From contig PLGF01000141.1 in NCBI GenBank assembly GCA_003138485.1, forward strand, positions 1 to 35,282: a stretch of 35,282 nucleotides of DNA, read 5' to 3'. Each line of letters begins with the position of its first letter. The stretch's first letter is position 1. The notes below the pieces were generated by a model. The model searched no databases, had not been told where the DNA came from, and saw nothing but the letters and a program-made list of their open reading frames with translations. This document shows, piece by piece, positions 1,362-30,773 of the stretch. Position numbers and translations under genes: made by a program. Source of the stretch: Verrucomicrobiales bacterium (GTDB taxonomy: Bacteria > Verrucomicrobiota > Verrucomicrobiia > Limisphaerales > Palsa-1400).

Positions 1362-2165
1362 ATGCTGTTCGATTTGTCAGAAGAAACGGCCGTCGTGATA
1401 GGCGGCACCGGGGTGCTGGGGGGAAAGCTGGCCGAGGGCCTGGCGGAGGCCGGGGCCAGGGTCGCCGTGGTCGGCCGCAACGCCGGACGCGGAGAAGCCT
1501 GCGTCCAGCGCATCGTCAAGGCGGGCGGGCAGGCCCGGTTCTTCCCGGCGGACGCCATATCGCGGCCCAGCCTGCGGCAGGCGGCCGGGCAAATTGAGGC
1601 GGCTTTTGGCGCGGTCACCGTGCTGGTCAACGCCGCGGGCGGAAATGACTCCAAAGTGACGCTGACGGACGGCTTGAAGTTCGAGCAGATCGCGTTGGAG
1701 GATTGGCGGGCGAATTTCGACCTGAACCTCGTGGGGGGCATCCTCCTGCCCTGCCAGGAATTCGGGCCGCCCATGGTGGCGCGCGGCAAAGGCAGCATCA
1801 TCAACATCGCCAGCGTTTCCGCCCACGTTCCTCTCTCCCGCGTGGCGGCCTATTCCGCCGCCAAGGCGGCCCTGCTGAATCTGTCGCAATTCCTGGCCCG
1901 CGAATGGGCACCCCGCAACGTTCGTGTCAACACAATCACCCCCGGCTTCTTCCCCGCCGAGCAAAACCGCCGGCTCCTTTTCCTTGAAGACGGCGCCCCC
2001 GCGCCGCGGGCCAAGAGCATCCTGGCGCATACGCCCATGGGCCGCTTCGGACAGCCGGAGGAATTGGCGGGCGCGGCGGTCTTCCTGGCCAGCGCCAAAG
2101 CCAGCGGCTTCGTCACCGGCGCCGATTTGCGGGTGGACGGCGGCTATCTGGCGCAGACGATTTAG
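1362..2165 (+). CDS. SDR family oxidoreductase, D-mannonate oxidoreductase (UxuB/YjmF)-like
   Basis: Classical short-chain dehydrogenase of 267 residues. The Rossmann nucleotide site reads GGTGVLGG near residue 14, followed by a NAAGG motif, a catalytic Ser in NIASVS and the YSAAK Tyr/Lys pair. The stretch PGFFPAEQNRRLL, the later HTPMGRFGQPEEL and the end VTGADLRVDGGY match the subgroup that reduces fructuronate to mannonate (Bacillus-type UxuB). That would place it in hexuronate use, but no other uxu/kdg gene is in the window, so the substrate is provisional. ATG 1362 aligns with the usual SDR start; the reading frame is open further upstream to 1281. It heads the plus-strand series, with 23 bases to the VOC-PurN gene. 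Confidence 0.85.
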   Translation: MLFDLSEETAVVIGGTGVLGGKLAEGLAEAGARVAVVGRNAGRGEACVQRIVKAGGQARFFPADAISRPSLRQAAGQIEAAFGAVTVLVNAAGGNDSKVTLTDGLKFEQIALEDWRANFDLNLVGGILLPCQEFGPPMVARGKGSIINIASVSAHVPLSRVAAYSAAKAALLNLSQFLAREWAPRNVRVNTITPGFFPAEQNRRLLFLEDGAPAPRAKSILAHTPMGRFGQPEELAGAAVFLASAKASGFVTGADLRVDGGYLAQTI

Positions 2166-2188
2166 CGAGGCGCACGAAGGTTCGTTGA

Positions 2189-3244
2189 ATGCAACTCTCT
2201 GGAATTCATCACGTCGCGATCATTTGCTCCGACTATGCCCGCTCGAAGCGATTCTATACTGAGGTTCTCGGTTTGACTGTGATCGCGGAAGCCTTCCGCG
2301 CGGCCCGCCAATCGCACAAGCTCGACCTGGCGGCGCCGGGTGGAGCGCGGATCGAGCTTTTTTCCTTTCCCGGTTCCCCCAGCCGGCTGTCCTATCCCGA
2401 AGCCCTGGGCCTCAGGCATCTGGCCTTCGCGGTGACCGACCTCGACGCTTGCGTGACCGAGCTTGAGGGCAAAGGCGTGAAAGTGGAGGCTGTGCGCCTG
2501 GACGAAGTAGCCAATAGACGCTTCACTTTCTTCGCTGATCCGGACGATCTGCCAATCGAGCTTTATGAGGCGCAAGGGAACTCATCCATTCATAGAACGG
2601 GGCTCGATCCACAAGCTTGTCGATTGGGAATTCTAGGGTCGGGCAAAGGTTCCAATGCCGCGGCCATCGCCGATGCCTGCGCGGCCGGAACCATTCCAGC
2701 CCGCGTCGCGGTGGTCATCAGCGACGTGGCGGGCGCCGGAATTCTCGAACAGGCGCGCGCGCGGGGGTTGGCGGCGCTGCATGTTGCGCCGGGCAAATTC
2801 CGGACGAGATTTGACGGGGTGGCGGAGGCTGCGTGCCTCAAGGCGTTGCGCGACGCGGAGGTGGACTTGGTGGTTCTGGCGGGATTCATGCGGATACTGA
2901 AAGGGGAGTTCCTGCGCGCCTACGCGGGCAAAGTGGTCAACATTCACCCGGCGCTCCTGCCGGCGTTTCCGGGTCTGGAAGCCTGGAAACAAGCCCTGGA
3001 TTACGGCGTCAAGATGACCGGAGTGACCATCCATTTCGTAGATGAGGGGATCGACACCGGCCCCATTATCGCCCAGGAAACGGCGCCGGTTCTGCCCGGC
3101 GACACCTCGGAAACGCTCCATGCGCGCCTCCAGGAAATCGAGCGCAAGCTCTATCCGGCCGTCATCGGCGCGCTGGCGCGAGGGGAGATTCGGGTGGAAG
3201 GACGCCGCGCGATCTGGCAAAATCACGGCCCTCAGCGCGCATGA
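2189..3244 (+). CDS. purN: VOC-domain / phosphoribosylglycinamide formyltransferase (PurN) fusion
   Basis: A single 351-codon frame encodes two complete domains. Residues 1-130 form a YaeR/GloA2-type vicinal-oxygen-chelate domain: IHHVAI at the start, IELFSFP, LRHLAFAV and PIELYEA supply the H-E-H-E metal set. After a linker of about 15 residues, residues 143-345 form PurN, which transfers formyl from 10-formyl-THF to GAR in purine synthesis. It has the phosphate loop GSGKGSN, the folate/catalytic stretch VNIHPALLPAFPG, the later catalytic His in TIHFVDEG and Asp in GIDTGP. There is no ATG or stop between the domains; one TTG at the junction is the only alternative start. PurN alone is normally about 200 residues. 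The role of the VOC part is unknown. The stop overlaps the start of a small basic ORF. Confidence 0.92.
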   Translation: MQLSGIHHVAIICSDYARSKRFYTEVLGLTVIAEAFRAARQSHKLDLAAPGGARIELFSFPGSPSRLSYPEALGLRHLAFAVTDLDACVTELEGKGVKVEAVRLDEVANRRFTFFADPDDLPIELYEAQGNSSIHRTGLDPQACRLGILGSGKGSNAAAIADACAAGTIPARVAVVISDVAGAGILEQARARGLAALHVAPGKFRTRFDGVAEAACLKALRDAEVDLVVLAGFMRILKGEFLRAYAGKVVNIHPALLPAFPGLEAWKQALDYGVKMTGVTIHFVDEGIDTGPIIAQETAPVLPGDTSETLHARLQEIERKLYPAVIGALARGEIRVEGRRAIWQNHGPQRA

Positions 3245-3375
3245 GGACAAAAAAGAAAAAGTTGGCTTTGCCGCGCCGACAGTGGAAAATCTCCCCGGTC
3301 ACGCGGGTCAAACATTCCGCCAAGACGTATTCGCGTCCGCGGGTCAAACGAGACACAGGACACTATGAGCCATAA
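3241..3375 (+). CDS. small basic protein, 44 aa, unknown
   Basis: Begins with ATG in an ATGA overlap with the purN stop and runs 10 bases into hisG, so it looks translationally coupled to both. The product is very rich in Lys and Arg (it begins [16 protein letters not shown]) with a central W-K-I-S-P-V-T-R-V segment and a K-T-Y-S-R-P-R stretch. That composition suggests RNA or ribosome contact, but no family is assigned. Without this ORF there would be 120 bases of non-coding sequence between purN and hisG. Support is context and composition only. Confidence 0.55.
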
Positions 3376-13026: not shown

Positions 13027-13866
13027 ATGATCGAAAGACCGCTTTGGAGGGAGCGTCTGGCCGCTGCCTGGAAGCAGGCGCCCATTGTCTGGCTGACCGG
13101 CCCCCGCCGGGTCGGCAAGACGGTGCTGGCGAAAAGCATCCCGAACGCGGAGTTTTTCAACTGCGACTTGCCGAGTGTGGCGGAACGCTTGCGTGATCCG
13201 GAAAGCTTCTATCGCTCGGTGCGCAAGCAAGTGGTGATCTTCGACGATGTGCATCAGCTTCCTGATCCAAGCCGGCTGTTAAAGATCGGCGCCGATGCGT
13301 TTCCGAAGTTGAAGATTCTCGCCACGGGTTCATCCACTTTGGCCGCGACACAAAAATTTCGCGACAGCCTTGCGGGACGCAAGCGGGTGGTTGAGCTTGT
13401 GCCGGTGCTGCACGAGGAATTGCCGGCGTTTGGCGTGGCCGACGTCCGGGAACGCCTCTTGCGCGGCGGGCTGCCGCCGGCCCTGCTGGCGGAGGCGCGT
13501 GACAGTGATCTCTATTCCGAATGGCAGGACTCCTATTTCGCGCGAGACGTCCAGGAGCTTTTCCGGTTGGAGAAGCGCGCTGGATTTTTACGCGTGCTCG
13601 AACTACTGCTGCGGCAAAGCGGCGGAATGCTCGATGTGACGAGAATCGCCGCCGAAAGCCAGATCAGCCGCCCCACCGTGATGAACTGGCTGGAGGTTTA
13701 TCAGGTGACGCATGTGGCGCATTTAATCCGTCCGTTCTCCGCGGGCGGTCGGCGCGAGGTTATTGCGCAGCCCAAGGTGTTCGGGTTTGACACGGGCATG
13801 GTGTGCCATGCTCGCGGTTGGGATCATTTGCGTTCGGAAGATTGCGGCGCGCTTTGGGAACACCTT
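13027..13866 (+). pseudogene. truncated DUF4143-type AAA ATPase
   Basis: The first 280 codons are a clear AAA_14/DUF4143 ATPase: Walker A in GPRRVGKTVLAK near residue 25, Walker B in VVIFDDVHQLPD, then the sensor segment ILATGSSTL and a winged-helix region (ISRPTVMNWLEVY). These proteins usually have about 390 residues and continue past the LWEHL motif into a nuclease-like DUF4143 C-terminus. Here the match stops at LWEHL (13866). The open frame continues to 15024 only by reading the back of another broken gene. The gene is therefore 3'-truncated by a rearrangement at about 13866. Confidence 0.8.
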
Positions 13867-14880
13867 GATCCGTTTTCGCACTTCCCCGTCAAAGCGAGCG
13901 TCGCCGGTGGCCGACTTGTAACGCACACAGTAGGCGACCAGCGGGAAGGGCGTGTCAGAGCGCTCCTCGATCTTGCCAAACCACTCCAGCGCGCCGTCGT
14001 AATTGCTGTTGCATTCCAGGAAGACCCCCTTGGCGATCAGCCCACTATAGGAATAAACTTCGCCTGCGAAGTCCGCGATGGCCCGCGCCTTTTCCGTCTG
14101 GCCTTTCCTCAAATAATAGCGCACCCGCCATTCAGCGTGGTTGGCGACGCGGACGGCGGCTGGATCGCTCTCGCACGCCTTATCGATCAGTTGCGCGCCT
14201 TTATCTTCTTGATTGTGGAGCAGGGCCTAGTCGCCGAGATCATAATTATAGGCTGGGTTCAGGACGGCCGCCTGCCGCATGAATTTCTCATACTGATCGG
14301 GCTGGTCATAGACGATGTTGGCCAGCATCTGCAAAGCGCCCGTGGAGTAAGGCAACTCCGGGTTGGCAAAGTCCTTTTCCAGACGGGCGGACAAAACCTG
14401 ATTTTCCAACTCAATGGTCTCGGCTGTACCGTCGAGCAAGCTGGTGACCAGCGACGTGTCAGCCGTTTGGTTCGTTCCGCCTCTGGCGCTCAACCCGACC
14501 GTCTCGGCCAGCGCCGCGGCCAAGTTGCGATAGACACCCGGCGACCAGATCGGGCCATTCACGTTCAATTCCTGCTTCAGGCCGGCGTGTTTCTAGTCCA
14601 GGCTGATCTGCAATTCATACACCGGCGCCTCGGAAGGGGAGCCGGGCTTTTCGTCGGCGGTGACGGAAAATTACTTCTTCTCCGGCAGTTGGCCGTTCCG
14701 CGCGAAATACATCTGCTCCGCCAAGTCAGACACGATGGCCTCGACGATGAATTGGGATTCGGACTGAAATGGAGTGTCAAAGTAGCCGGCCCCTCCGGCG
14801 CGGGAATTGGCCGCGAAGCCGACCGCCAGCGCCAGCGTAACCAGACCGGCCGGCAATCCGTGACAGAGGTTCTTGGCCAT
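13867..14880 (-). pseudogene. secreted repeat protein broken by three in-frame stops
   Basis: A signal peptide (starts MAKNLCHGLPAGLVTLALAVGF) begins at 14880. The frame then continues through three stop codons, at 14671 (TAA), 14593 (TAG) and 14227 (TAG), all in the same phase, to the junction at 13867. There is no frameshift. Between the stops the translation stays protein-like, including ANIVYDQPDQYEKFM, LIDKACESDPAAVRVANHA and a final segment with TPR-like alternation (AIADFAGEVYSYSGLIAKG, DGALEWFGKIEE). This is a gene killed by point mutations and then cut at its 3' end. The family is not recognised. Confidence 0.75.
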
Positions 14881-14902
14881 GGGACACTGTCGGATAACGC
14901 CC

Positions 14903-15268
14903 TTATCCCTGCGCTTTCATTTTGGCGGCGAGCTGGGCGGCGAAGGCGGCGTGCGGCGCCTCTTGCAGACTGCTTCGGAGAATATCAAGCTCTCTGGCCG
15001 AATCGTGCGCGAGCAGCGCATTGACGGCGAGAGCCAACCCCGGAAAGTGCGGGCCGCGAAGCACGCCCCGGTCATCCGGCATGTTGGGGACGTATTCTCT
15101 GCAAACGATTCCTTCGATGAGTTCAGCCTTCTTGATCCGTGGCATTTCTTCGTAGCGGCGCAAGAACTCCGCCGCCCCAAGGCGGTCGCCGCTTTCCAGC
15201 GGCGGCGGCGGGGGCCGCGCTCCCAATCGGGACGCCTGCGGCCGCGTGACTGTGGCTGGTGCGGCCAT
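14903..15268 (-). pseudogene. Uma2 (DUF820) family gene with internal deletion
   Basis: The N-terminal part, [16 protein letters not shown] then [14 protein letters not shown], is the Uma2 start. It jumps directly to the family's C-terminal part, REYVPN....[22 protein letters not shown], then [13 protein letters not shown]. The PD-(D/E)XK-like core between them, roughly 80-100 residues in normal members of about 200-240 residues, is missing, so no catalytic Asp/Glu set remains. The frame is otherwise open, so a short peptide could still be made, but nuclease activity is not expected. Confidence 0.7.
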
Positions 15269-20460: not shown

Positions 20461-21561
20461 GTGAAATCGATAAACGCGCGGCAATTCCTTCGGATTAGCC
20501 CGGCGGGGTGGCTGCTCGCCGCGCTGCTGGCCACCCTGGTCTGGCGGGCTTACTCCCAGACTTCGACCCTTGCTGATTCGCGCGGTCTCGCGACGCCCGG
20601 CGCGGTCGTGCTGGCCATGCCGAAGGTCGCGGCGGATCGACGGCAGGACCTGCCGGCCGTCTTTCGCCAACGCGTGCCAACATCCGTGGCGGATCTGCGC
20701 GCGATGCAGCAACTGATTGAGACGCTGACGCCGAAGATTTCTCCGGCGGTCGTGGCTGTGGAAGTGGGCTACAGCAGCGCCAGCGGCGTCGTGATCTCGG
20801 CCGACGGCCTGGTGTTGACGGCGGGGCATGTATGCGAATGGCCGAACCGGGATGTGAAGTTTGAGTTTCCCGACGGCAAGACGGCCCGCGGCAAGACGCT
20901 GGGACTTAATGAGGACGCCGACACCGGGCTGATGAAGATTACTGGCTCCGGTCCCTGGCCACACGTGGCCTTGGGGGACCTGGACCACGCGCACTTGGGG
21001 GATTGGGTGCTGGCCTTGGGCCATCCGGACGGGTTTGACGTGAAGCGTTCGCTGGTGGTGCGCCTGGGCCGCGTGATTCGCGCCGCGCCGGGGGTGTTGC
21101 AAACCGATTGCACGATCAGCCCGGGCGACTCCGGCGGCCCGCTCTTCGACATGCAAGGACACGTTATCGGCATCCATTCGGCCATCAGCAGTTCGGTGGC
21201 TGAGAATTTCCATGTCCCAATCACCGAATTCATCGACACCTGGCACGAATTGGCGGCGGTGCCGCGTCCGGAATTACCCGTCGCGGCGCGTCCGGCGGCA
21301 TACTCCGGGGCAAGCGTCACCTTTGACGCCGCCGGATGCCGTTTGAGCGCGATTGACAAGGACAGCCCGGCGGCGCGCGCGGGATTGAAAACCAACGACG
21401 TGGTTGTGAAGATCGAAGGGCGCAACATCCTCAGCGCTGCGTCGTTTGAGCGGTGGGTGGCGGAGTCCGGCCCCGGTGGAACATTGCGTCTGGAAGTGCT
21501 CCGCGACGGCAAAGTTCTATCTTTGAAAATGAAGCTCCAACCCCAGGCCCGCGGGAACTGA
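20461..21561 (+). CDS. HtrA/DegP-like serine protease with one PDZ domain
   Basis: A 366-residue protein with an N-terminal signal or anchor helix (WLLAALLATLVW, residues 17-28), a trypsin-like domain and a C-terminal PDZ domain (about 285-360). The triad is intact: His123 in LTAGHV, Asp154 in EDADTGLMKI and Ser224 in SPGDSGGPLFD. S1C proteases of this type degrade or refold damaged envelope proteins. The start is GTG, with GGAG about 10 bases upstream. Seven bases separate it from the next HtrA-like gene, suggesting that the two products act together. Confidence 0.9.
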   Translation: MKSINARQFLRISPAGWLLAALLATLVWRAYSQTSTLADSRGLATPGAVVLAMPKVAADRRQDLPAVFRQRVPTSVADLRAMQQLIETLTPKISPAVVAVEVGYSSASGVVISADGLVLTAGHVCEWPNRDVKFEFPDGKTARGKTLGLNEDADTGLMKITGSGPWPHVALGDLDHAHLGDWVLALGHPDGFDVKRSLVVRLGRVIRAAPGVLQTDCTISPGDSGGPLFDMQGHVIGIHSAISSSVAENFHVPITEFIDTWHELAAVPRPELPVAARPAAYSGASVTFDAAGCRLSAIDKDSPAARAGLKTNDVVVKIEGRNILSAASFERWVAESGPGGTLRLEVLRDGKVLSLKMKLQPQARGN

Positions 21562-21568
21562 CCTACTC

Positions 21569-22807
21569 ATGCGCCTCCCTCGTATCCATTGCGCTCCGTG
21601 GCTCCTGGTCCGCTTATTTCATAGCTTGGCGGGGCGAAGCTGCAAACGGAACTGGATAGTCGATGCACAAGTGAACAAATTATTGGGCAGACGCTTGCGC
21701 GCGGGCTTTGCGGGCCGCTTCGCCCAGATATTTGGGCGGCGCGGCAGCGCCGCCCTACCGACAAATTGGAAGCGGCTTTTGCCGCACTATGAAATATGCG
21801 GGCTGGCCGCGGTTCTCTTGTGCGCATTGCCGCCGATCGCTTCGGCGCAGGACCTTTCCAGCTATCCGTCCCTGCCGGCCTACCGATACCGCAACGGCTC
21901 GGAAACCTTGAGCGCCTTCGCCCCCATCTCGGCGGCCACGCGGGAATCGATCGTGGAAGTCAATGTCGATGGCGAAGCGGTGGCGCTGGGAACGGTCGCC
22001 GAGGCCGGAGGGCTGGTCCTGAGCAAGGCAAGCGAGATCAAACCGGGCAAACTGACTTGCTGGCTTGCCTCGGGCAAAGAAGTTCCGGCCGCGGTGCTTG
22101 CGGTTGACCAGGATGAGGACGTGGCGCTGCTGCGCGTGGAGGCCCCGGAATTGAAGCCCATCCGCTGGGCCGCCAGGGAAGTCGTGATCGGGCAATGGGC
22201 GATCACGCCCGCGCTGGCCGAAACTCCCCAGGCCGTCGGCATCATCAGCGCGCTGCCGCGGCGAATCCGGCCTGAGCGGGCGTACATCGGCGTGGTGTTT
22301 GACAAAAAGGGCGACGACGCGACGCCCAGGATTGTTGAGATCGAACCGGGACTGGGCGCGGAGAAGGCGGGCGTCAAGCCGGGGGACGTGATCGTGGCTG
22401 TCAACAATGAACTGGTTTCCACGCAGGACCGCGTGGTGGATATTGTGAGCGATTTGCGCGAGGGCCAGACGGTCAACATGCGCTTTGAACGCGACGGCAA
22501 ACCGTACGAGGCGGTAATCACGCTGATGTCGCCGAAAGAGGGGAATTTTGGCCGGCGGCGCAACAGCCGGCTGGCCGGGGACACCAGCCAGCGCGCCAAA
22601 GGATTCGACGAGGCCATCGAACACGACACCGTCCTGGCGCCGTGGTTGTGCGGCGGTCCGCTTGTGAACCTGGACGGCGAAGCTATCGGCCTGAACATCG
22701 CCCGATCGAGCCGCTTCGCCACCTACGCGCTGCCCGCCGCCCTGGCGCAAAAAATTCTGGGCGCTCTCAAAGCGTCTCCGGCGCCGGCTGGCAGCGGTGG
22801 GAATTGA
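21569..22807 (+). CDS. HtrA-like pseudo-protease with nested PDZ domain
   Basis: Related to S1C proteases but catalytically altered. At the usual L-T-N-H-H-V position the sequence is LVLSKASEI, so the His is replaced (Ser155). Asp184 in EDVALLRV remains. The nucleophile motif reads WLCGGPLVN, giving Cys361 instead of Ser. The PDZ domain (about 239-322, YIGVVFDKK to the R-F-E-R-D-G-K-P-Y strands) lies before the CGGPL motif, that is, inside the protease fold rather than after it. A secretion signal, LAAVLLCALPPIASAQ, occupies 79-94. The first 70 codons contain a palindromic repeat, so the true start may be TTG 21779. Probably a regulator or chaperone partner of the upstream protease. Confidence 0.8.
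   Translation: MRLPRIHCAPWLLVRLFHSLAGRSCKRNWIVDAQVNKLLGRRLRAGFAGRFAQIFGRRGSAALPTNWKRLLPHYEICGLAAVLLCALPPIASAQDLSSYPSLPAYRYRNGSETLSAFAPISAATRESIVEVNVDGEAVALGTVAEAGGLVLSKASEIKPGKLTCWLASGKEVPAAVLAVDQDEDVALLRVEAPELKPIRWAAREVVIGQWAITPALAETPQAVGIISALPRRIRPERAYIGVVFDKKGDDATPRIVEIEPGLGAEKAGVKPGDVIVAVNNELVSTQDRVVDIVSDLREGQTVNMRFERDGKPYEAVITLMSPKEGNFGRRRNSRLAGDTSQRAKGFDEAIEHDTVLAPWLCGGPLVNLDGEAIGLNIARSSRFATYALPAALAQKILGALKASPAPAGSGGN
21734..21755. repeat. perfect 9-bp palindrome GGGCGGCGC/GCGCCGCCC
   Basis: Nine base pairs around the loop GGCA, followed by TACC. It lies within the 5' part of the open frame of the second HtrA-like gene, upstream of the signal peptide. It resembles a dispersed intergenic element, which argues that translation starts after it. 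Confidence 0.7.
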
Positions 22808-23745: not shown

Positions 23746-25929
23746 TCACTTGGGTGCGTTGGTGGAGCCGCGCGGCGGTTCATTGGTGGAAACCAACGGC
23801 GGCGCAAGCCGCAGGGAAGCCGGGAGCAAGCCGGTGTCGTTCATAAAAGCATAAACCCACCAGAGCAGGAAAATGGCGGCCAGGATTTTGGGCCAGGCGG
23901 CCGTCTTTTCGGCATAGCGATCATGGAGGTCCACCGAGGCGCCCTCCGGCAGTTCGGCAATGTCAGTAAGGCGGGCGCCAAAGGGGACGTTGATCCTGGC
24001 TTTGGTGTTGATGGCCCAACCGTTGGCGTCAAGAATAGGACCGAGGTTTCGCCGCCGCAGCTTGATGTAGGCCAGGACGACCGCCGGGCCGGAGATCAGA
24101 AGCATCAGACCCAGGGCGATGAGAGGCAGCTCCCACAAGGCAAACCCCTTCAGATACCCAAGGAACCCGGCGAAGGCGGCCGTGAGGCTGCCCAAGGCTA
24201 CGCTGACCAAGGCGATCACGCTGGGATCGAGGGTCCGCTTGGCGGGCGGCGGGGCGGCGCCGCCGGCGACCGCGCCCATCTGCGCGTCGGCGTCGGTTTG
24301 GGCCGAGGATGCGCGTTTGGTGACCTGCTCCTCAATCAGGCGGGCCAGCTTGTTGTAGGGGGACCAGAAGGCTTGGCGCAGGCTGACCGGGTTGGCCAGG
24401 ATTTTGACGATAGTGGCGTCGTAATCGCGCCCTTTGCGGTCATAAAAAATCCCGTTCCGGCCCACCATCAAATTCTCGTCGTCGCCCTGGGAAAAAATGG
24501 CGACGATGCTCAATTTTTCACCGCCGCCTTTGCGGGCGCACTCGGCGTAGGCCAGGAAGGCGCCGGCCAAACCGGCCATGTTGGAGTGTTTGGCGGCGTT
24601 ATCCACGGTGAGGCAGAGGCGGCAGGAGCGCTGGTCCAGATAGAGCACGCCGGCCTGGAAAATGGCCGGGGTGTCGCCGGCATAGAGATTCTTGAAGTTG
24701 ACAAAGTTCAGGCAGAGGATGTGCAGGTCGCGGACAAAACGGGTGAGCTTTTCGACGCCGGCAAGGGCGGCGGCCTCGTATTCCAGAGCCTGGTCGCGCG
24801 CGATGAGGGCGTTGATGGCGGGCGCCGCCGGCCCGGCCAGAATCTCGCGGACCCGCGCGCCGCCGAGCGGCTCGACGGCCGCGCCCGCCTTGGCCGCTTT
24901 CCAGGCGGCAAAGGGCGCCAGGCGCGCCTGCAACGCGGCCCAGTCCGCCTCGGTCAATTCGGCCCGATCTCCCAGGAGCGGTTTGAGGGCCTTGTTCCGC
25001 AGCGCCGCAACGGCGTCGGAGCAGGCGGGATTGACCGCGCCCTGGAGGGGCAGCGGCTTGTGGGCGGCAACCTGGGCGAGCGGAAAACCGGCCACTTCGG
25101 CGACGTTGATGCTGAGGTCCTTCGCGACGATGGGCGCGTAATCTTCCTCCTTGCGGTTGACCATCGCGGCCGCGCGCGGGTCAAATGCGGCCAGCCGGCA
25201 GCGGCCGAAGTAGTCATCGACTTTCGCCTTGATCGAATTCACCGCGGCAGCCGCCTCCCCGGTCGCTTCGCCAAGGGGCAGAATCGCCGGGCTTTTCTCC
25301 GCCTCGCGCATCCAGGCGTCGAAGGCGGCGCACTGTGCAAAAAACTCCGCGGCCCTTGCCTGGTCGATGCCGGGCTGACCGGAACGGTCGCTCACAGGCC
25401 CCATGCAGGCGAGGATGTCGCGAAGAACCGATTTTGTGGCCTCGTCACCTGCCGAATCCACTACGATGACGCCGTCGCCGTTGAAGAGGGCGCCGGCGAA
25501 AGTCTTTCCGCCGTCGGTGGCTTCGGCTACGGTGATGGCGGCGGCGTCCTCGCGGCCGAGGGCGGAGAGGATTTGTTTGGCGGCGGCCAGGATTTGTTTG
25601 CCTTCGGGGCTGGTGTCGTTGATGGCGGCCAGCGGGAGAGAGTCGCCGGCGTCGATGAGGTCGTCGGGGTCCTTGAGCGTGAAGCCGGCCCATTGGACGG
25701 CGGCGATCAATTCGGGGGCGCGAATCCGGCCGTCCAGGTCGGTGTCGATCAAGGCGGCGGTCCGGGCGTCGAATTCCAGGCCGGTGAGGGGACAGGCCAA
25801 GGCAACCCAGAGCTTCTGGTCCAGTTGGTCCAGGTGCATCAAGTCCGCGCCGGTTTCCAGCTTGACCTGATCAAAGTCGCCGGCGCGAAAGAAGTGCCAG
25901 CGATGTTTGTGGGGCGCGGAATCGGGCAT
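23746..25929 (-). CDS. large membrane-anchored protein with an EF-hand site, unknown
   Basis: 727 residues; no family assigned. A canonical 12-residue EF-hand loop, DTDLDGRIRAPE, occupies residues 62-73, with the Asp-Asp-Asp-Gly...Glu ligands complete. A long soluble part follows, including LHILCLNFVNFKNLY and V-L-Y-L-D-Q-R-S-C-R-L-C-L-T-V-D. A Pro-rich linker then leads to two hydrophobic helices (about 565-620), a polar domain (DANGWAINTKARINVPFG) and a last helix (WPKILAAIFLLWWVYAFM). The likely topology is a large N-terminal domain with membrane anchoring near the C-terminus. It starts 12 bases after the DUF481 gene, so the two form an operon. Confidence 0.75.
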   Translation of the reverse strand: MPDSAPHKHRWHFFRAGDFDQVKLETGADLMHLDQLDQKLWVALACPLTGLEFDARTAALIDTDLDGRIRAPELIAAVQWAGFTLKDPDDLIDAGDSLPLAAINDTSPEGKQILAAAKQILSALGREDAAAITVAEATDGGKTFAGALFNGDGVIVVDSAGDEATKSVLRDILACMGPVSDRSGQPGIDQARAAEFFAQCAAFDAWMREAEKSPAILPLGEATGEAAAAVNSIKAKVDDYFGRCRLAAFDPRAAAMVNRKEEDYAPIVAKDLSINVAEVAGFPLAQVAAHKPLPLQGAVNPACSDAVAALRNKALKPLLGDRAELTEADWAALQARLAPFAAWKAAKAGAAVEPLGGARVREILAGPAAPAINALIARDQALEYEAAALAGVEKLTRFVRDLHILCLNFVNFKNLYAGDTPAIFQAGVLYLDQRSCRLCLTVDNAAKHSNMAGLAGAFLAYAECARKGGGEKLSIVAIFSQGDDENLMVGRNGIFYDRKGRDYDATIVKILANPVSLRQAFWSPYNKLARLIEEQVTKRASSAQTDADAQMGAVAGGAAPPPAKRTLDPSVIALVSVALGSLTAAFAGFLGYLKGFALWELPLIALGLMLLISGPAVVLAYIKLRRRNLGPILDANGWAINTKARINVPFGARLTDIAELPEGASVDLHDRYAEKTAAWPKILAAIFLLWWVYAFMNDTGLLPASLRLAPPLVSTNEPPRGSTNAPK

Positions 25930-25941
25930 GGGAGTCTCCGG

Positions 25942-26748
25942 CTAAAACTTGTAAGCGACGGAGGCGATGAGCTTGAGATCGTTCTTGAGGCGGCCGGGGG
26001 CGGGGATGCTGTCGTAAGAATCCTGGAGCACCGTGCGCAAGAGGAGCCGTTCGCTCTTGTTCAAGCCGGCTTCGACGCCCAGTTCGGCGTTGGCGATGTA
26101 ATTGTCGAATTTGTCCACCTGGGGCAGAAACTCAAGGGTTTCCCACACGCGGGAACGTGCGCTGAGGGCGTAATGGAATTTTTCCGAGACGCGCAAGGTG
26201 GCAAAGCTCTGGGTGTGGTCGTCGAGTTTTTCGAATATGTAAGCGGGGCCGACTTCCAGGCTCAGGTCGGAGACTTTATTCTTGATGAAGTAATAGCCGG
26301 CGCCGGGCGCGAGTGTGAAACGGTATTCGATGTCGGAGATGCCGTCATGCAAACCATCGACGCGGGCATAGGCGAAAAGGCGGTCGGTGAAATTGATGTT
26401 GTCCTGGATGGCGCCGTGAAGGGACTCGGCGGTCTCGGTGGATTTGGTGTCGCCGGTAAGCTTGGATTCTCCGTACAAGCCTTCCAAGCCGAGGTTGAGA
26501 TCGTCATTGGTCCACTTCCGCTCGGCGTGGGTGCTCAGGGAGAACAGAGTCGTGTCGGTGTTGCCACGCGCCAGCGTCAAACCCAGGGCCGCGCTGCCGT
26601 GCCATGGGTTGATGACGGCGGGGGCGACGTTGGTGGAAGCCGCCGCCGGCGCTTGGGCGCGCGCGGACAACGCGCTGGCCAGGGCAATCAACAAAAAGGC
26701 GGCAACTGATTTTTTCGTGTTGGACAACATAATTCCTGTTTTTTTCAT
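25942..26748 (-). CDS. DUF481 (YdiY-like) outer-membrane beta-barrel protein
   Basis: A protein of about 268 residues with a signal peptide (KKSVAAFLLIALASALSARAQA). The mature protein begins with the DUF481 pattern WHGSAALGLTLARGNTDTT and consists of alternating amphipathic strands, ending in Phe (S-V-A-Y-K-F) as outer-membrane barrels do. Function unknown. ATG 26748 is chosen; ATG 26730 has an AGGA only three bases away, and GTG 26760 is also in frame. First gene of a two-gene unit with the EF-hand membrane protein. Confidence 0.85.
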   Translation of the reverse strand: MKKTGIMLSNTKKSVAAFLLIALASALSARAQAPAAASTNVAPAVINPWHGSAALGLTLARGNTDTTLFSLSTHAERKWTNDDLNLGLEGLYGESKLTGDTKSTETAESLHGAIQDNINFTDRLFAYARVDGLHDGISDIEYRFTLAPGAGYYFIKNKVSDLSLEVGPAYIFEKLDDHTQSFATLRVSEKFHYALSARSRVWETLEFLPQVDKFDNYIANAELGVEAGLNKSERLLLRTVLQDSYDSIPAPGRLKNDLKLIASVAYKF

Positions 26749-26879
26749 TTTTTTTGACACGCATGGACGAAACCCGACCGGCGGAGTCTCATCGAGAGCG
26801 TCTCATTTCGTTCGAAACGGCAGGCACTTTATAGAAGAAAAGAATCCCGTGACAAGGGAAATCTTTCGAACGGCGGGGG

Positions 26880-26906
26880 AAAAAAAGGCGCCCCACCCAG
26901 GGCGCC
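26880..26906 (-). terminator. intrinsic terminator of the pilB operon
   Basis: On the minus strand GGCGCCC, a six-base loop and GGGCGCC form a seven-pair GC stem followed by seven Ts. It lies about 145 bases past the stop of the PilB-type gene and upstream of the DUF481 gene, so it separates the two transcripts. Confidence 0.88.
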
Positions 26907-27049
26907 CCATGAAAACTAACTCTACTGCGCAGGCAGCGTAGAGGTTCTCCGGCGGCGTGTCTGCAAGGCGAAACACGGATTCCTCTGTAATGCCAAACCT
27001 TACACGGGGGCGGCGCACATGGGCGATTGGCTGTAACGTAAACAACGGG

Positions 27050-28789
27050 CTACTCGCCGGAGGTCACCAGAAGGGTCTGCTCGAGGGTGGAATAACCGTC
27101 GCGCACCTTTTCCAGGCTGACGGTCCGCAGAGTCTTCATGCCCTGGGCAATGGCGATTTTGGCAAGGTCCTGGGCGGTGGCCCGCTTGATGATGAGTTTG
27201 CGGATTTCATCTGTCATCGTCATCGCTTCGATGATGGCAAGACGGCCGGAATAGCCCGTGTTCTTGCAGCGCTCGCATCCCCGGCCGCGATTGAGGACGG
27301 CGCCCTCAAAGTAGTTGGGATCAATGCCGAGGTCCTCGAACATTTTCTCCGGGTAATTCACCGGTTCCTTGCAACTGGAGCAAATCCGGCGCATCAGGCG
27401 CTGCGCGCAGGACAAAATCACCGCGGAGGAGATCAAGAATGGGGCGATCTCCATTTCATCGAGCCGGGAGATGGCGCCCGCGGCGTCGTTGCAGTGCATG
27501 GTGCTCAAGACCTGGTGGCCGGTGAGGGCGGACTCGACGGCGATTTCGGCCGTTTCAGTGTCGCGAATTTCGCCGATCATGATGATGTCGGGGTCCTGGC
27601 GGAGAATGGAGCGGAGGGCGTTGGCAAAAGTGAGGCCGATCTCCTTTTTGACAGGGACTTGATTGACGCCCGGAAGCTGGAATTCGACGGGGTCCTCGAC
27701 GGTGACGATGTTGAATTGAGGGCTGTTCAACTCGTTGAGGGCCGAATAGAGGGTGGTGGTCTTGCCCGAGCCGGTGGGACCGGTGACCAGGATCAAGCCG
27801 TGAGGGGCGTCGATGGCGTATTTGAAACGTTTGTAGGTTTCCAGATCGATCCCCAGCTTGTCCATGCTGGCGGAAAGGTTCGATTTGTCCAGGACGCGCA
27901 AGACGCATTTCTCCCCGTGAACCGTGGGGAGGAAGGAGACGCGCAAATCGACGTCGCGGCCGCCGACGCGCACGCGCATGCGGCCGTCTTGGGGCAGGCG
28001 GCGCTCGGCGATGTCCAGGCTGCTCATGACTTTGATGCGGGAGGTCAAGGCGACTTGGAGGTTCTTTGGGGGCGGCGGCATGTCGATGAGGCTGCCGTCA
28101 ATGCGATAGCGCAGGCGGACCATGCCCTCGAAAGGCTCAATGTGAATGTCGCTGGCGCGGTCTTTGATTGCTTGGACCAGAATGAGATTGGCGAGTTTGA
28201 TGACCGGGGCGTCCTCGGTCGAGGCGGTCAACTGAGCCAAGTCGGTTGTTTCGGCTGCCTCGTGCGTCACCTCCAGGTTGTCGGCATCGGCCTCCGCCTC
28301 CGCCTGCTTGGCTGCGTCCTGGATGATCTCCTCCATGCTGGTGGCGCGGTTGCTGTCGAGGTTGGCCAGTTTGTCGAGGATGGCCCTTTCCGATGCGATG
28401 AGCGGAAAGACTTCCAGCTTGGTCATGCGCCTGATGTCGTCCACGGCCAAAACGTTGAGCGGGTCGGCCATGGCCAGGAAAAGGCGGTTGCCCAGCTTGG
28501 AGATGGGGAGGACCTTGTAGTTGGTCGCCATTTCGCGTGGGACCAATTCGGTGACCTCCGGCGACAGACCCAGATGGGTCACATTGACGGGCGGGGTGTT
28601 CAAAACCCGGCCCATCGAAACGACCAGGTCGCTCTCGGTCACGTAGGCTTTTTCGATCACCAGCTTGAGCAGGCGGGTGCCTTCCTTTTTCTGCTTCTCC
28701 ATCAACTCCTCGACTTGCGCGCCCGTCAGCAATCCGTCCTCGACCAGGGCGTCGGCGATGCGTTCACCAAGTGATTTGACGTGAGGCAT
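27050..28789 (-). CDS. type IV pilus / type II secretion assembly ATPase (PilB/GspE)
   Basis: A 579-residue hexameric traffic ATPase that drives pilus or pseudopilus extension. It has an N-terminal MshEN-like region (about 10-150), then the secretion ATPase core with Asp/His boxes (DIHIEPFEGMVRLRYRIDG), Walker A GPTGSGKTTT, Walker B-type segment PDIIMIGEIRDTETA and a His box (LSTMHCNDA). A zinc-binding pair, ICSSCKEP and GCERCKNTGYSGR, follows near the C-terminus. ATG 28789 is used because it begins the conserved region; the frame is open to 28864. PilB and GspE cannot be separated without neighbours. It lies five bases downstream of the TPR-MshEN gene. Confidence 0.93.
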   Translation of the reverse strand: MPHVKSLGERIADALVEDGLLTGAQVEELMEKQKKEGTRLLKLVIEKAYVTESDLVVSMGRVLNTPPVNVTHLGLSPEVTELVPREMATNYKVLPISKLGNRLFLAMADPLNVLAVDDIRRMTKLEVFPLIASERAILDKLANLDSNRATSMEEIIQDAAKQAEAEADADNLEVTHEAAETTDLAQLTASTEDAPVIKLANLILVQAIKDRASDIHIEPFEGMVRLRYRIDGSLIDMPPPPKNLQVALTSRIKVMSSLDIAERRLPQDGRMRVRVGGRDVDLRVSFLPTVHGEKCVLRVLDKSNLSASMDKLGIDLETYKRFKYAIDAPHGLILVTGPTGSGKTTTLYSALNELNSPQFNIVTVEDPVEFQLPGVNQVPVKKEIGLTFANALRSILRQDPDIIMIGEIRDTETAEIAVESALTGHQVLSTMHCNDAAGAISRLDEMEIAPFLISSAVILSCAQRLMRRICSSCKEPVNYPEKMFEDLGIDPNYFEGAVLNRGRGCERCKNTGYSGRLAIIEAMTMTDEIRKLIIKRATAQDLAKIAIAQGMKTLRTVSLEKVRDGYSTLEQTLLVTSGE

Positions 28790-28794
28790 AAGTG

Positions 28795-29640
28795 TCAACG
28801 AAAAGCTTTGCCCAGGACGCGCAGCAGATCGGCCGGCGGGGCGAGGTACCAGAGGAGGCGGCATTTGAGCTTTTCTTCAAGGTCCGCGATGGCTTGTTTG
28901 TTGAAGGGATTGGCGGTGGCGACCATGACGGTTTTGCTCATCCGGTCAAAGGGGGCGATGCACCAGCGCTGGCAAATGTCGCGCGAGGCCGCCCGCAACT
29001 GGTCGATGTCCAACTCGTATCGGTCCAGGGGGAAGTAGGCCAGGCGGGAGCGGTCGGAGAGCACCTTGAGGGATTTTTCAATCGGCAGGAGCTGCCGTTC
29101 GGCAAGGTTGTGAATGAAAGGCTCGATCACTTTGCCCGGCGGCGCGGTGAGGCTTGGGGCCGGCCAGCAAAGTTCAAAATCGGGGGCGGTTATCAATTTG
29201 CCGTCAACAAAGTACTTGAACATGAGCTGGCGGCCGTCATCGACCTCCGGCTGGGCGGCGGCTGTGCCGGCGCCTTTGGCGGCCGGGGCGGCGGAGACGC
29301 CATTGACAGAGGTATCCGACTCCTGGGGCCGGGTGCCCATATTGTTCGCCTTGCTCTCGATTTGGGCCATGGCCGCGACGGCATCCTTGTCTTCGGGGTG
29401 GCGCTGGAGGACGGTCTCGAATTCGAGGATGGCGGAGGAAAGCTGGCCCAACTGAACGTAAGCCTGGGCGATTCGTTTGGAAGTCTCGATGACCTCCTTC
29501 TCCATGCCCAACTTGAGATAGGCTTCCTTGAGGATTTCAAGGGACTGGTAATCCTGCGGCTGCGATTGAGTGATGACCTCGAACATCTCAATCGTTTGCC
29601 GCAGTTGCGCCTCTTCGCCCGGATTCAATGTGCCAAGCAT
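28795..29640 (-). CDS. TPR plus MshEN-like protein upstream of pilB
   Basis: 281 residues. The first 90 or so are TPR-type helices (I-L-K-E-A-Y-L-K-L-G, Y-V-Q-L-G-Q-L-S-S-A-I-L-E-F). An Ala-rich linker follows, and then a C-terminal domain like the N-terminal MshEN/GspE_N module of secretion ATPases (IEPFIHNLAERQLLPIE to VMVATANPFNKQAIADLEEKL). It has no Walker motifs. MshEN modules often bind c-di-GMP; whether this one keeps the binding residues is not clear. Its stop is five bases before pilB, so it is probably a regulatory or assembly partner of that ATPase. Confidence 0.78.
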   Translation of the reverse strand: MLGTLNPGEEAQLRQTIEMFEVITQSQPQDYQSLEILKEAYLKLGMEKEVIETSKRIAQAYVQLGQLSSAILEFETVLQRHPEDKDAVAAMAQIESKANNMGTRPQESDTSVNGVSAAPAAKGAGTAAAQPEVDDGRQLMFKYFVDGKLITAPDFELCWPAPSLTAPPGKVIEPFIHNLAERQLLPIEKSLKVLSDRSRLAYFPLDRYELDIDQLRAASRDICQRWCIAPFDRMSKTVMVATANPFNKQAIADLEEKLKCRLLWYLAPPADLLRVLGKAFR

Positions 29641-29656
29641 GACTGCTGAGGAAAAA

Positions 29657-29741
29657 TGGTGCGCTTAGCAGGACTTGAACCTGCACGGCTTTCGCCACTA
29701 CCACCTCAAAGTAGCGTGTCTGCCAATTCCACCATAAGCGC
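29657..29741 (-). tRNA. tRNA-Leu (anticodon GAG)
   Basis: Minus-strand class II tRNA with a long variable arm (TGGCGAAAGCC), acceptor GCGCTTA/TAAGCGC, discriminator A and encoded CCA. The anticodon stem CTACT/GGTAG closes loop TTGAGGT, giving GAG, which reads CUC and CUU. The D-arm GGTGGAATTGGCAGACAC is typical of bacterial tRNA-Leu. Confidence 0.95.
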
Positions 29742-29795
29742 AACGTCTGTAAGACCCATTCTCGCAGAAACCGGCAAAAGCGCAAGGAAATCCCC

Positions 29796-30773
29796 TCACC
29801 GGGCGAAAATCCGCCGGATGACCTCCTCAATGGGGACTTCCTGGATGTCGATGTCCGTCACGGGCACTTTGTCGAGCAACTCCTTGCAAACGGCGATGAC
29901 CTGGTCGCGTTTGACTTTGAGCTGGATGTGCTGGGCGCTCTGCTCGACAAGCTCGCCGTAGCGGCCGAAATCCACGGCCGGGAAACTGGCGCCCGTCTGC
30001 CAGGTCAGGGTCAGAATCTTGAATCCGGAAAAGCGGTCGATGATTTCGCCCAGGCGGCCGTCGAAGAATATCCTGCCTTTGTCGATTATTATCACCCGCT
30101 TGCACAGCTCCTGGATGTCCGTCATGTAGTGGCTGGTGAGCAGGATCGTGACTTTCTGGCGGCTGTTGTACTGCCGGAGAAACTCCCGCACGGTCTTTTG
30201 CGACACGACGTCCAGCCCGATGGTCGGTTCGTCCAGGAACAGAACTCTGGGGCGGTGCAGGAGGGCGGCGACCAGTTCCATTTTCATCCGCTCGCCCAGG
30301 GAGAGTTCGCGGACCATGACGTCCAGCTTGTCCCGCACGGCCAGGAGTTCGGTCAAATCGGCGACAGTGCGTTCGAATGCGGGGCGCGGGATGCCGTAAA
30401 TTTTGCTGTTCAACTCCAGCGATTCGCGGGCGGGGAGGTCCCACCAGAGCTGGTTCTTTTGACCGAGCAAGAGGGCGAATTGCCGGCGGTAGCCGTCGTG
30501 CCGCTGCCAGGGAACGTAGCCGAGCACGCGGGCCGAGCCGCCGCTGGGAAAAAGCAGGCCGGAGAGAATCTTCAGGGTGGTGGTCTTGCCTGCGCCGTTC
30601 GGGCCGAGAAAGCCAACCAATTCGCCTTCCTCAACGGAAAAGCTGACGTGATCGACGGCAACGGTCTGTTCGTAGCGGCGATGGAAGAGGCCGCGGAGGG
30701 CACCGCCAAAGCCCGGCTCTTTCTTGTACGTGCGGAAGGCCTTGGTCAAACCTTGGACTTCGATGAGGGGCAT
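29796..30773 (-). CDS. ABC-2 type transporter ATP-binding protein
   Basis: 325 residues with all nucleotide-binding motifs: Walker A GPNGAGKTTT, Q-loop in LLLGQKNQLWWDLPA, signature LSLGERMKMEL, Walker B VLFLDEPTIGLD and switch His in TSHYM. The N-terminal insert (KKEPGFGGALRGLFHRRY) and the C-terminal tail of about 90 residues are typical of the exporter subgroup that pairs with DUF990-type ABC-2 permeases. No permease is in the window: tRNA-Leu lies downstream and dnaA upstream (8 bases), so the partner is elsewhere. Substrate unknown. Confidence 0.9.
   Translation of the reverse strand: MPLIEVQGLTKAFRTYKKEPGFGGALRGLFHRRYEQTVAVDHVSFSVEEGELVGFLGPNGAGKTTTLKILSGLLFPSGGSARVLGYVPWQRHDGYRRQFALLLGQKNQLWWDLPARESLELNSKIYGIPRPAFERTVADLTELLAVRDKLDVMVRELSLGERMKMELVAALLHRPRVLFLDEPTIGLDVVSQKTVREFLRQYNSRQKVTILLTSHYMTDIQELCKRVIIIDKGRIFFDGRLGEIIDRFSGFKILTLTWQTGASFPAVDFGRYGELVEQSAQHIQLKVKRDQVIAVCKELLDKVPVTDIDIQEVPIEEVIRRIFAR

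Follow-up and report, generated by a model that had tools for sequence, protein, structure and literature searches.

Active and inactive protease subunits are mixed in rings of the ClpP/ClpR type. In magnetotactic bacteria, MamO promotes MamE-dependent proteolysis through its TauE-like transporter domain, and the dead MamO domain, marked by a surface di-histidine metal site, binds metal (PMC4794232). In Arabidopsis, the PDZ-less and PDZ-bearing HtrA subunits Deg5 and Deg8 have been reported as heterohexamers (PMC3640471, PMC9319218). HtrA proteases share a trimeric core. HtrA proteins are defined by zero to three PDZ domains placed C-terminal to the protease domain (PMC3640471), and signalling from the PDZ to the protease core via loop L3 is a central question for these enzymes. 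Loop L3 comprises residues 241–251 of Deg5, whose nucleophile is Ser266 (PMC3640471), and residues 298–307 of HtrA1, whose nucleophile is Ser328; in HtrA1 both R302 and loop L3 are important, and L3 couples to loop LD of the next monomer (PMC5666011). In Deg1, a PDZ–L3–LD network forms upon activation (PMC3640471).

We analyzed a window, that is, the whole stretch of 35,282 nucleotides of contig PLGF01000141.1 from a Verrucomicrobiales bacterium, which encodes an active HtrA-type protease and, directly downstream, a pseudoprotease. Comparison of sequences established a permuted domain order in the pseudoprotease, an ancestral loss of its catalytic His and Ser, a strict pairing of the two genes, their co-duplication, fusions between them, and cases in which the dead partner has the only PDZ. 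Across Verrucomicrobiota the two genes almost always occur together, which suggests a protease of two parts, not described before, in which the dead half probably senses or delivers substrate.

Domain order and catalytic site of the pseudoprotease

The features of the locus are listed in Table 1. The coordinates, Ser155, Cys361, and the 7 bases between the end of the upstream ORF and the start of the pseudoprotease ORF were all as given in the original prediction.

Table 1. Coordinates of the features of the gene pair in the window, and of the fused genes at five other loci
Feature	Coordinates	Strand	Remarks
Active HtrA-type (S1C) serine protease, protease–PDZ order	20461..21561	+	366 aa; Pfam Trypsin_2 107–238, PDZ_2 292–359
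Pseudoprotease ORF	21569..22807	+	412 aa; start codon doubtful
Repeat of ~200 bp, dispersed in the genome, in place of the native 5′ end	21604..21802	+	Residues ~12–78
Native signal peptide remnant, LAAVLLCALPPIASAQ-type hydrophobic core	21803..21835	+	Aligns with signal peptides of relatives, e.g., L022
Part 1 of protease fold: N-terminal barrel plus initial strands of C-terminal barrel, to start of L3	21911..22270	+	Profile–profile alignment
Ser155, at catalytic His position, K-x-S-E motif	22031..22033	+	Ser in 37/39 members
Asp184, at catalytic Asp position, kept	22118..22120	+	Asp in 38/39 members
Arg231, at L3 sensor arginine position	22259..22261	+	Arg in 37/39; equivalence hand-counted from GIVS motif
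Inserted PDZ domain	22283..22522	+	Pfam PDZ_2 and profile match; in all members
Part 2 of protease fold: final strands of C-terminal barrel, plus C-terminal helix	22571..22771	+	Profile–profile alignment
Cys361, at nucleophile Ser position	22649..22651	+	
Protease–pseudoprotease fusions	L147 1192–3597; L150 1228–3612; L148 3219–5477; L132 1–2469; L133 595–2505		

Pfam detected Trypsin_2 over residues 142–214, covering only the first part of the domain, and PDZ_2 over residues 239–318 (5e-11). No other Pfam model scored above the cut-off, and there was no C-terminal TauE-like transporter domain. The score against the NCBIfam model TIGR02037 was 81 bits, against a cut-off of 416. A phmmer comparison with the DegQ structure 3pv3 aligned query residues 136–199, 254–323, and 343–383 with DegQ residues 76–141, 285–356, and 187–227, respectively; because these blocks match DegQ out of sequence, the order in the pseudoprotease is permuted. 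When the family alignment was cut into three pieces and each was compared, profile to profile, with ordinary HtrA proteins, part 1 aligned to HtrA residues 102–203 (E 9e-17), the inserted PDZ to the HtrA C-terminal PDZ, residues 307–381 (E 3e-17), and the C-terminal part 2 to residues 210–276 (E 2e-15). As judged from these alignments the permuted order is far above chance, and it was seen in every relative examined. Both parts of the fold match by profile and Trypsin_2 matches as well, which identifies a trypsin-like protease domain homologous to HtrA (S1C). Part 2 contains the motifs SQRAKGF..IEHDTV..CGGPL..GLNIAR..YALP.

Parts 1 and 2 are adjacent in HtrA, so the PDZ splits the loop that joins strand GIVSA to strand xIQTD. 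By alignment, this insertion site is HtrA loop L3, the activation sensor, within the C-terminal barrel. The original prediction had placed the PDZ between the two halves of the barrel. Its order of protease part, PDZ, and CGGPL part was borne out by phmmer and by the profiles, but the PDZ does not lie between two whole halves, since it splits the C-terminal barrel. We infer that an insertion into L3 is sterically plausible, because the ends of a surface hairpin loop sit close together. The HtrA criterion of a PDZ C-terminal to the protease domain is not met in any member of the family, as the PDZ is always between parts 1 and 2, and we found no description of this domain arrangement in the literature, where the search covered open-access papers only. 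An AlphaFold2 model made with a two-sequence alignment, of the window protein and its nearest named relative (Verrucomicrobia subdivision 3 bacterium UBA693, locus L051, 58% identity), had a pLDDT of 36, with only the PDZ near 70, and was not used.

The catalytic site was compared across 39 members. The residue at the His position was Ser in 37, Ala in one, and Glu in one, and never His. At the nucleophile position there were 18 Cys, 10 Met, three Ile, three Ala, two Val, and one each of Gln, Thr, and Ser, and the sole member with Ser is without the His. On these counts the family, which does not meet the intact His-Asp-Ser criterion of HtrA (S1C), is ancestrally dead, and the Cys is not a conserved nucleophile. 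The suggestion that the partner might be Cys-based, for which conservation of the Cys in homologues was to be the check, fell on both sites: the base His is absent everywhere, and the Cys, kept in only 18 of the 39, is replaced by Met, Ile, Val, Ala, or Gln in many members. A Cys protease of trypsin fold (picornain-like) is unlikely for the same reasons and was rejected.

Other positions are strongly conserved. Across 17 aligned members, the conserved positions are K-x-S-E around the His site, the Asp of the triad, and, within the PDZ, "GD" and the ligand-loop Gly; part 2 retains S-x-R-x-x-G-F, NIAR-x-x-R, and a single His. In a wider set the ligand-loop Gly was kept in 40/40. By the hand count from the GIVS motif, Arg231 occupies the position of R302 in HtrA1 and of R178 in DegS. 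A rival explanation is that the scaffold has been put to a new use, such as the binding of metal or of a ligand as in MamO, through K-x-S-E or through His264, Arg291, and Arg294 (numbered on the 324-residue stretch 21833–22804). The His site is fixed as Ser within K-x-S-E without drift, several other residues are nearly invariant, and MamO offers a precedent (PMC4794232). However, we recognized no metal-site signature, His264 is Thr or Ser in seven members, and a new activity alone does not account for the obligate active partner. We consider this explanation very improbable.

Distribution of the family and pairing with an active protease

In whole-genome searches, 15 further genomes of the order proved to encode relatives with the same domain arrangement. 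Homologues of this kind had been proposed as a check on the architecture, and in the class the same order together with a dead triad was found in 114 copies, in 62 of the 335 genomes sampled; a two-PDZ member with two matches was entered once in this count. Same-order relatives also occur in two genomes from outside the class but within the phylum. Searches beyond the phylum were insensitive, as the 84,980 genomes were scanned with one query sequence only. A viral scan gave just weak local matches, in part 2, and a plasmid search gave no match. Within the family, codon positions 1, 2, and 3 differ by 0.34, 0.24, and 0.51, a pattern that shows purifying selection on the pseudoprotease.

The active partner has an intact His/Asp/Ser triad (LTAGHV, DADTGL, GDSGGP), and the triad was intact in all 39 active partners examined, including that of the window. 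The same listing includes one ordinary DegP-like protein of L090, whose triad is likewise intact. Of 97 genomes of the order, 16 had both genes and none had only one. Across the class, the active partner is directly upstream on the same strand for 110 of the 114 pseudoprotease genes. Two of the four exceptions are upstream of a protease–pseudoprotease fusion (L148 is the one inspected of these two), one is inside an 816-residue frame that was not inspected, and the partner of the last is on a different contig. A profile of the partner type set its members apart from DegP-like proteins in general (E up to 4.4e-58 versus 2.8e-54 and weaker), and for a single partner-type match, in an uninspected 725-residue frame of G287, no dead partner was detected. 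Among the relatives inspected, most have the two genes overlapping by 4 bases (ATGA) or separated by 11–33 bases. Paralogous pairs a and b form matching clades in the trees of both proteins; therefore, the pair was duplicated as a unit. No conserved neighbourhood was found beyond the gene pair.

Elsewhere in the window, positions 13027–15024 (+) encode a protein of 665 aa in which the Pfam matches AAA_14 and DUF4143 extend no further than roughly residue 280; a shorter relative of it is encoded near the L090 pair. Positions 23746–29961 contain long open frames on both strands, and the four tested (727, 605, 285, and 101 aa) had no Pfam match at E 1e-5.

At five loci, the active and dead parts are encoded in one ORF. 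The active part comes first in L147, L148, L150, and L132, and the dead part comes first in L133, where the linker is ~14 residues. At L148, a pseudoprotease gene (1669–3339, G319) is directly upstream of the fusion, and the locus has two dead parts and one active part. The upstream active protease had been predicted to have a non-proteolytic partner here, and the conserved dead triad, the adjacency in 110 of 114 cases, the co-duplication, the fusions, and the purifying selection support this. What fusion and adjacency prove is that the two are functionally linked; they do not prove that a mixed trimer forms.

The dead protein could still be a separate adaptor or chaperone: it would oligomerize on its own in the envelope, bind substrates through the PDZ and the dead cleft, and pass them to the active protease without a shared trimer. 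HtrA proteins such as DegP can act as chaperones, and the obligate pairing and the retention of fold and PDZ fit such a role. Against it, the fusions tie the folds closely, in one case with the short linker of L133, although a fused adaptor is still possible; we regard this alternative as unlikely. A dedicated inhibitor would instead keep the active subunit locked, to be released by the arrival of a PDZ ligand. The strictly linked co-expression agrees with this, and a mixed trimer that includes a dead paralogue could be less active, but no substrate-mimicking loop is evident and permanent fusions would require a release mechanism, which makes an inhibitor improbable. Sequence cannot decide between the adaptor and inhibitor roles, and none of a free adaptor, an inhibitor, and a new ligand-binding role is excluded.

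In the window itself, the 5′ end of the pseudoprotease gene is occupied by a repeat that recurs at about 19 other places in the same genome (74–95% identity), some of them within open frames, and the ORF stays open through it by chance. The repeat has taken the place of the native start and of the signal-peptide n-region, with the remnant directly after it. The annotated start is an ATG just outside the repeat, and an alternative in-frame TTG is found at 21779. Because of the position of the repeat, the true N-terminus and start are doubtful, and this copy may be poorly expressed; the conclusions on the family are independent of its expression. Such an insertion, like the dead triad, is what a decaying and functionless duplicate of the protease would have, and homologues with a normal triad would have marked this copy as merely decaying. 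We looked for them and found none, the His site being never His in the 39 members. The same architecture and motifs throughout the class, the purifying selection, the co-duplication, and the fusions refute decay for the family, and as an explanation it is scarcely credible.

Proposed role of the inactive partner

Most active partners keep a C-terminal PDZ. Those of L136, L051, L086, and L094 are without one, as are those in other members of the L136 genus, judged by ORF length (249–273 aa), so that in these pairs the dead partner holds the only PDZ. A dead partner of L090 (6721–8205, minus strand, G056) has two tandem PDZs at the L3 insertion point. Because PDZ-less active partners exist and the dead ones always have a PDZ, the PDZ of the dead partner is the constant element of the pair; it is not a simple replacement, since most active partners retain their own.

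A PDZ built into L3, next to a retained arginine in a chain that does not cleave, looks like a sensory subunit. The reading that we favour, and hold to be somewhat probable, is a two-subunit HtrA in which the dead, exported paralogue with its PDZ in L3 is the obligate sensory partner of the upstream catalytic protease. The active and dead subunits would assemble as a mixed HtrA oligomer in the periplasm, where the inserted PDZ may bind exposed peptide ends of substrates or stress signals. With the PDZ built into L3, binding could be relayed straight to LD, the activation loop of the adjacent active subunit, and this relay would switch that subunit on or deliver substrate to it. The mixed oligomer and its mechanism (allosteric relay) are inferred, with no experiment and no modelled complex. 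The wider proposal, which we hold no more firmly than we doubt it, is that in many Verrucomicrobiota HtrA catalysis and sensing are split between paralogues and the L3-wired PDZ of the dead subunit allosterically fires its active neighbour in a mixed oligomer.

The pair is a natural separation of sensing from cleavage, with the PDZ built into L3 and catalysis removed from that chain. It adds a widespread example of a pseudoprotease retained as a dedicated partner, and for many such genes the annotation is probably that of an ordinary protein, "PDZ domain-containing" or "trypsin-like".

Comparison with known systems

The rings of ClpP/ClpR resemble the pair in that a dead paralogue belongs to the regular subunits of the protease complex, but their fold is unrelated and their dead subunit is without a grafted sensor domain. 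The nearest published analogue in the open-access literature is MamE/MamO, and Deg5/Deg8 is also among the closest. MamE and MamO likewise combine an active HtrA protease with a dead trypsin-like paralogue (PMC4794232), whereas MamO has a TauE-like domain and a PDZ inside the protease fold has not been reported for it. For our family, the dead trypsin-like domain and the genetic pairing with an active HtrA are shown, whereas functional dependence has no experimental data. Deg5/Deg8 resembles the pairs in which a PDZ-less subunit is joined by a PDZ-bearing HtrA subunit; in contrast, both Arabidopsis proteins keep the catalytic triad residues and the PDZ of Deg8 is C-terminal. With HtrA, DegP, DegQ, and DegS (MEROPS S1C; TIGR02037), the pseudoprotease shares a homologous trypsin-like fold with a PDZ, the Asp, the L3 arginine, the GGPL.NL.G..IG strand, and, in its relatives, signal peptides. 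It differs from all of them in having its PDZ inside L3, no C-terminal PDZ, and neither the catalytic His nor the Ser.
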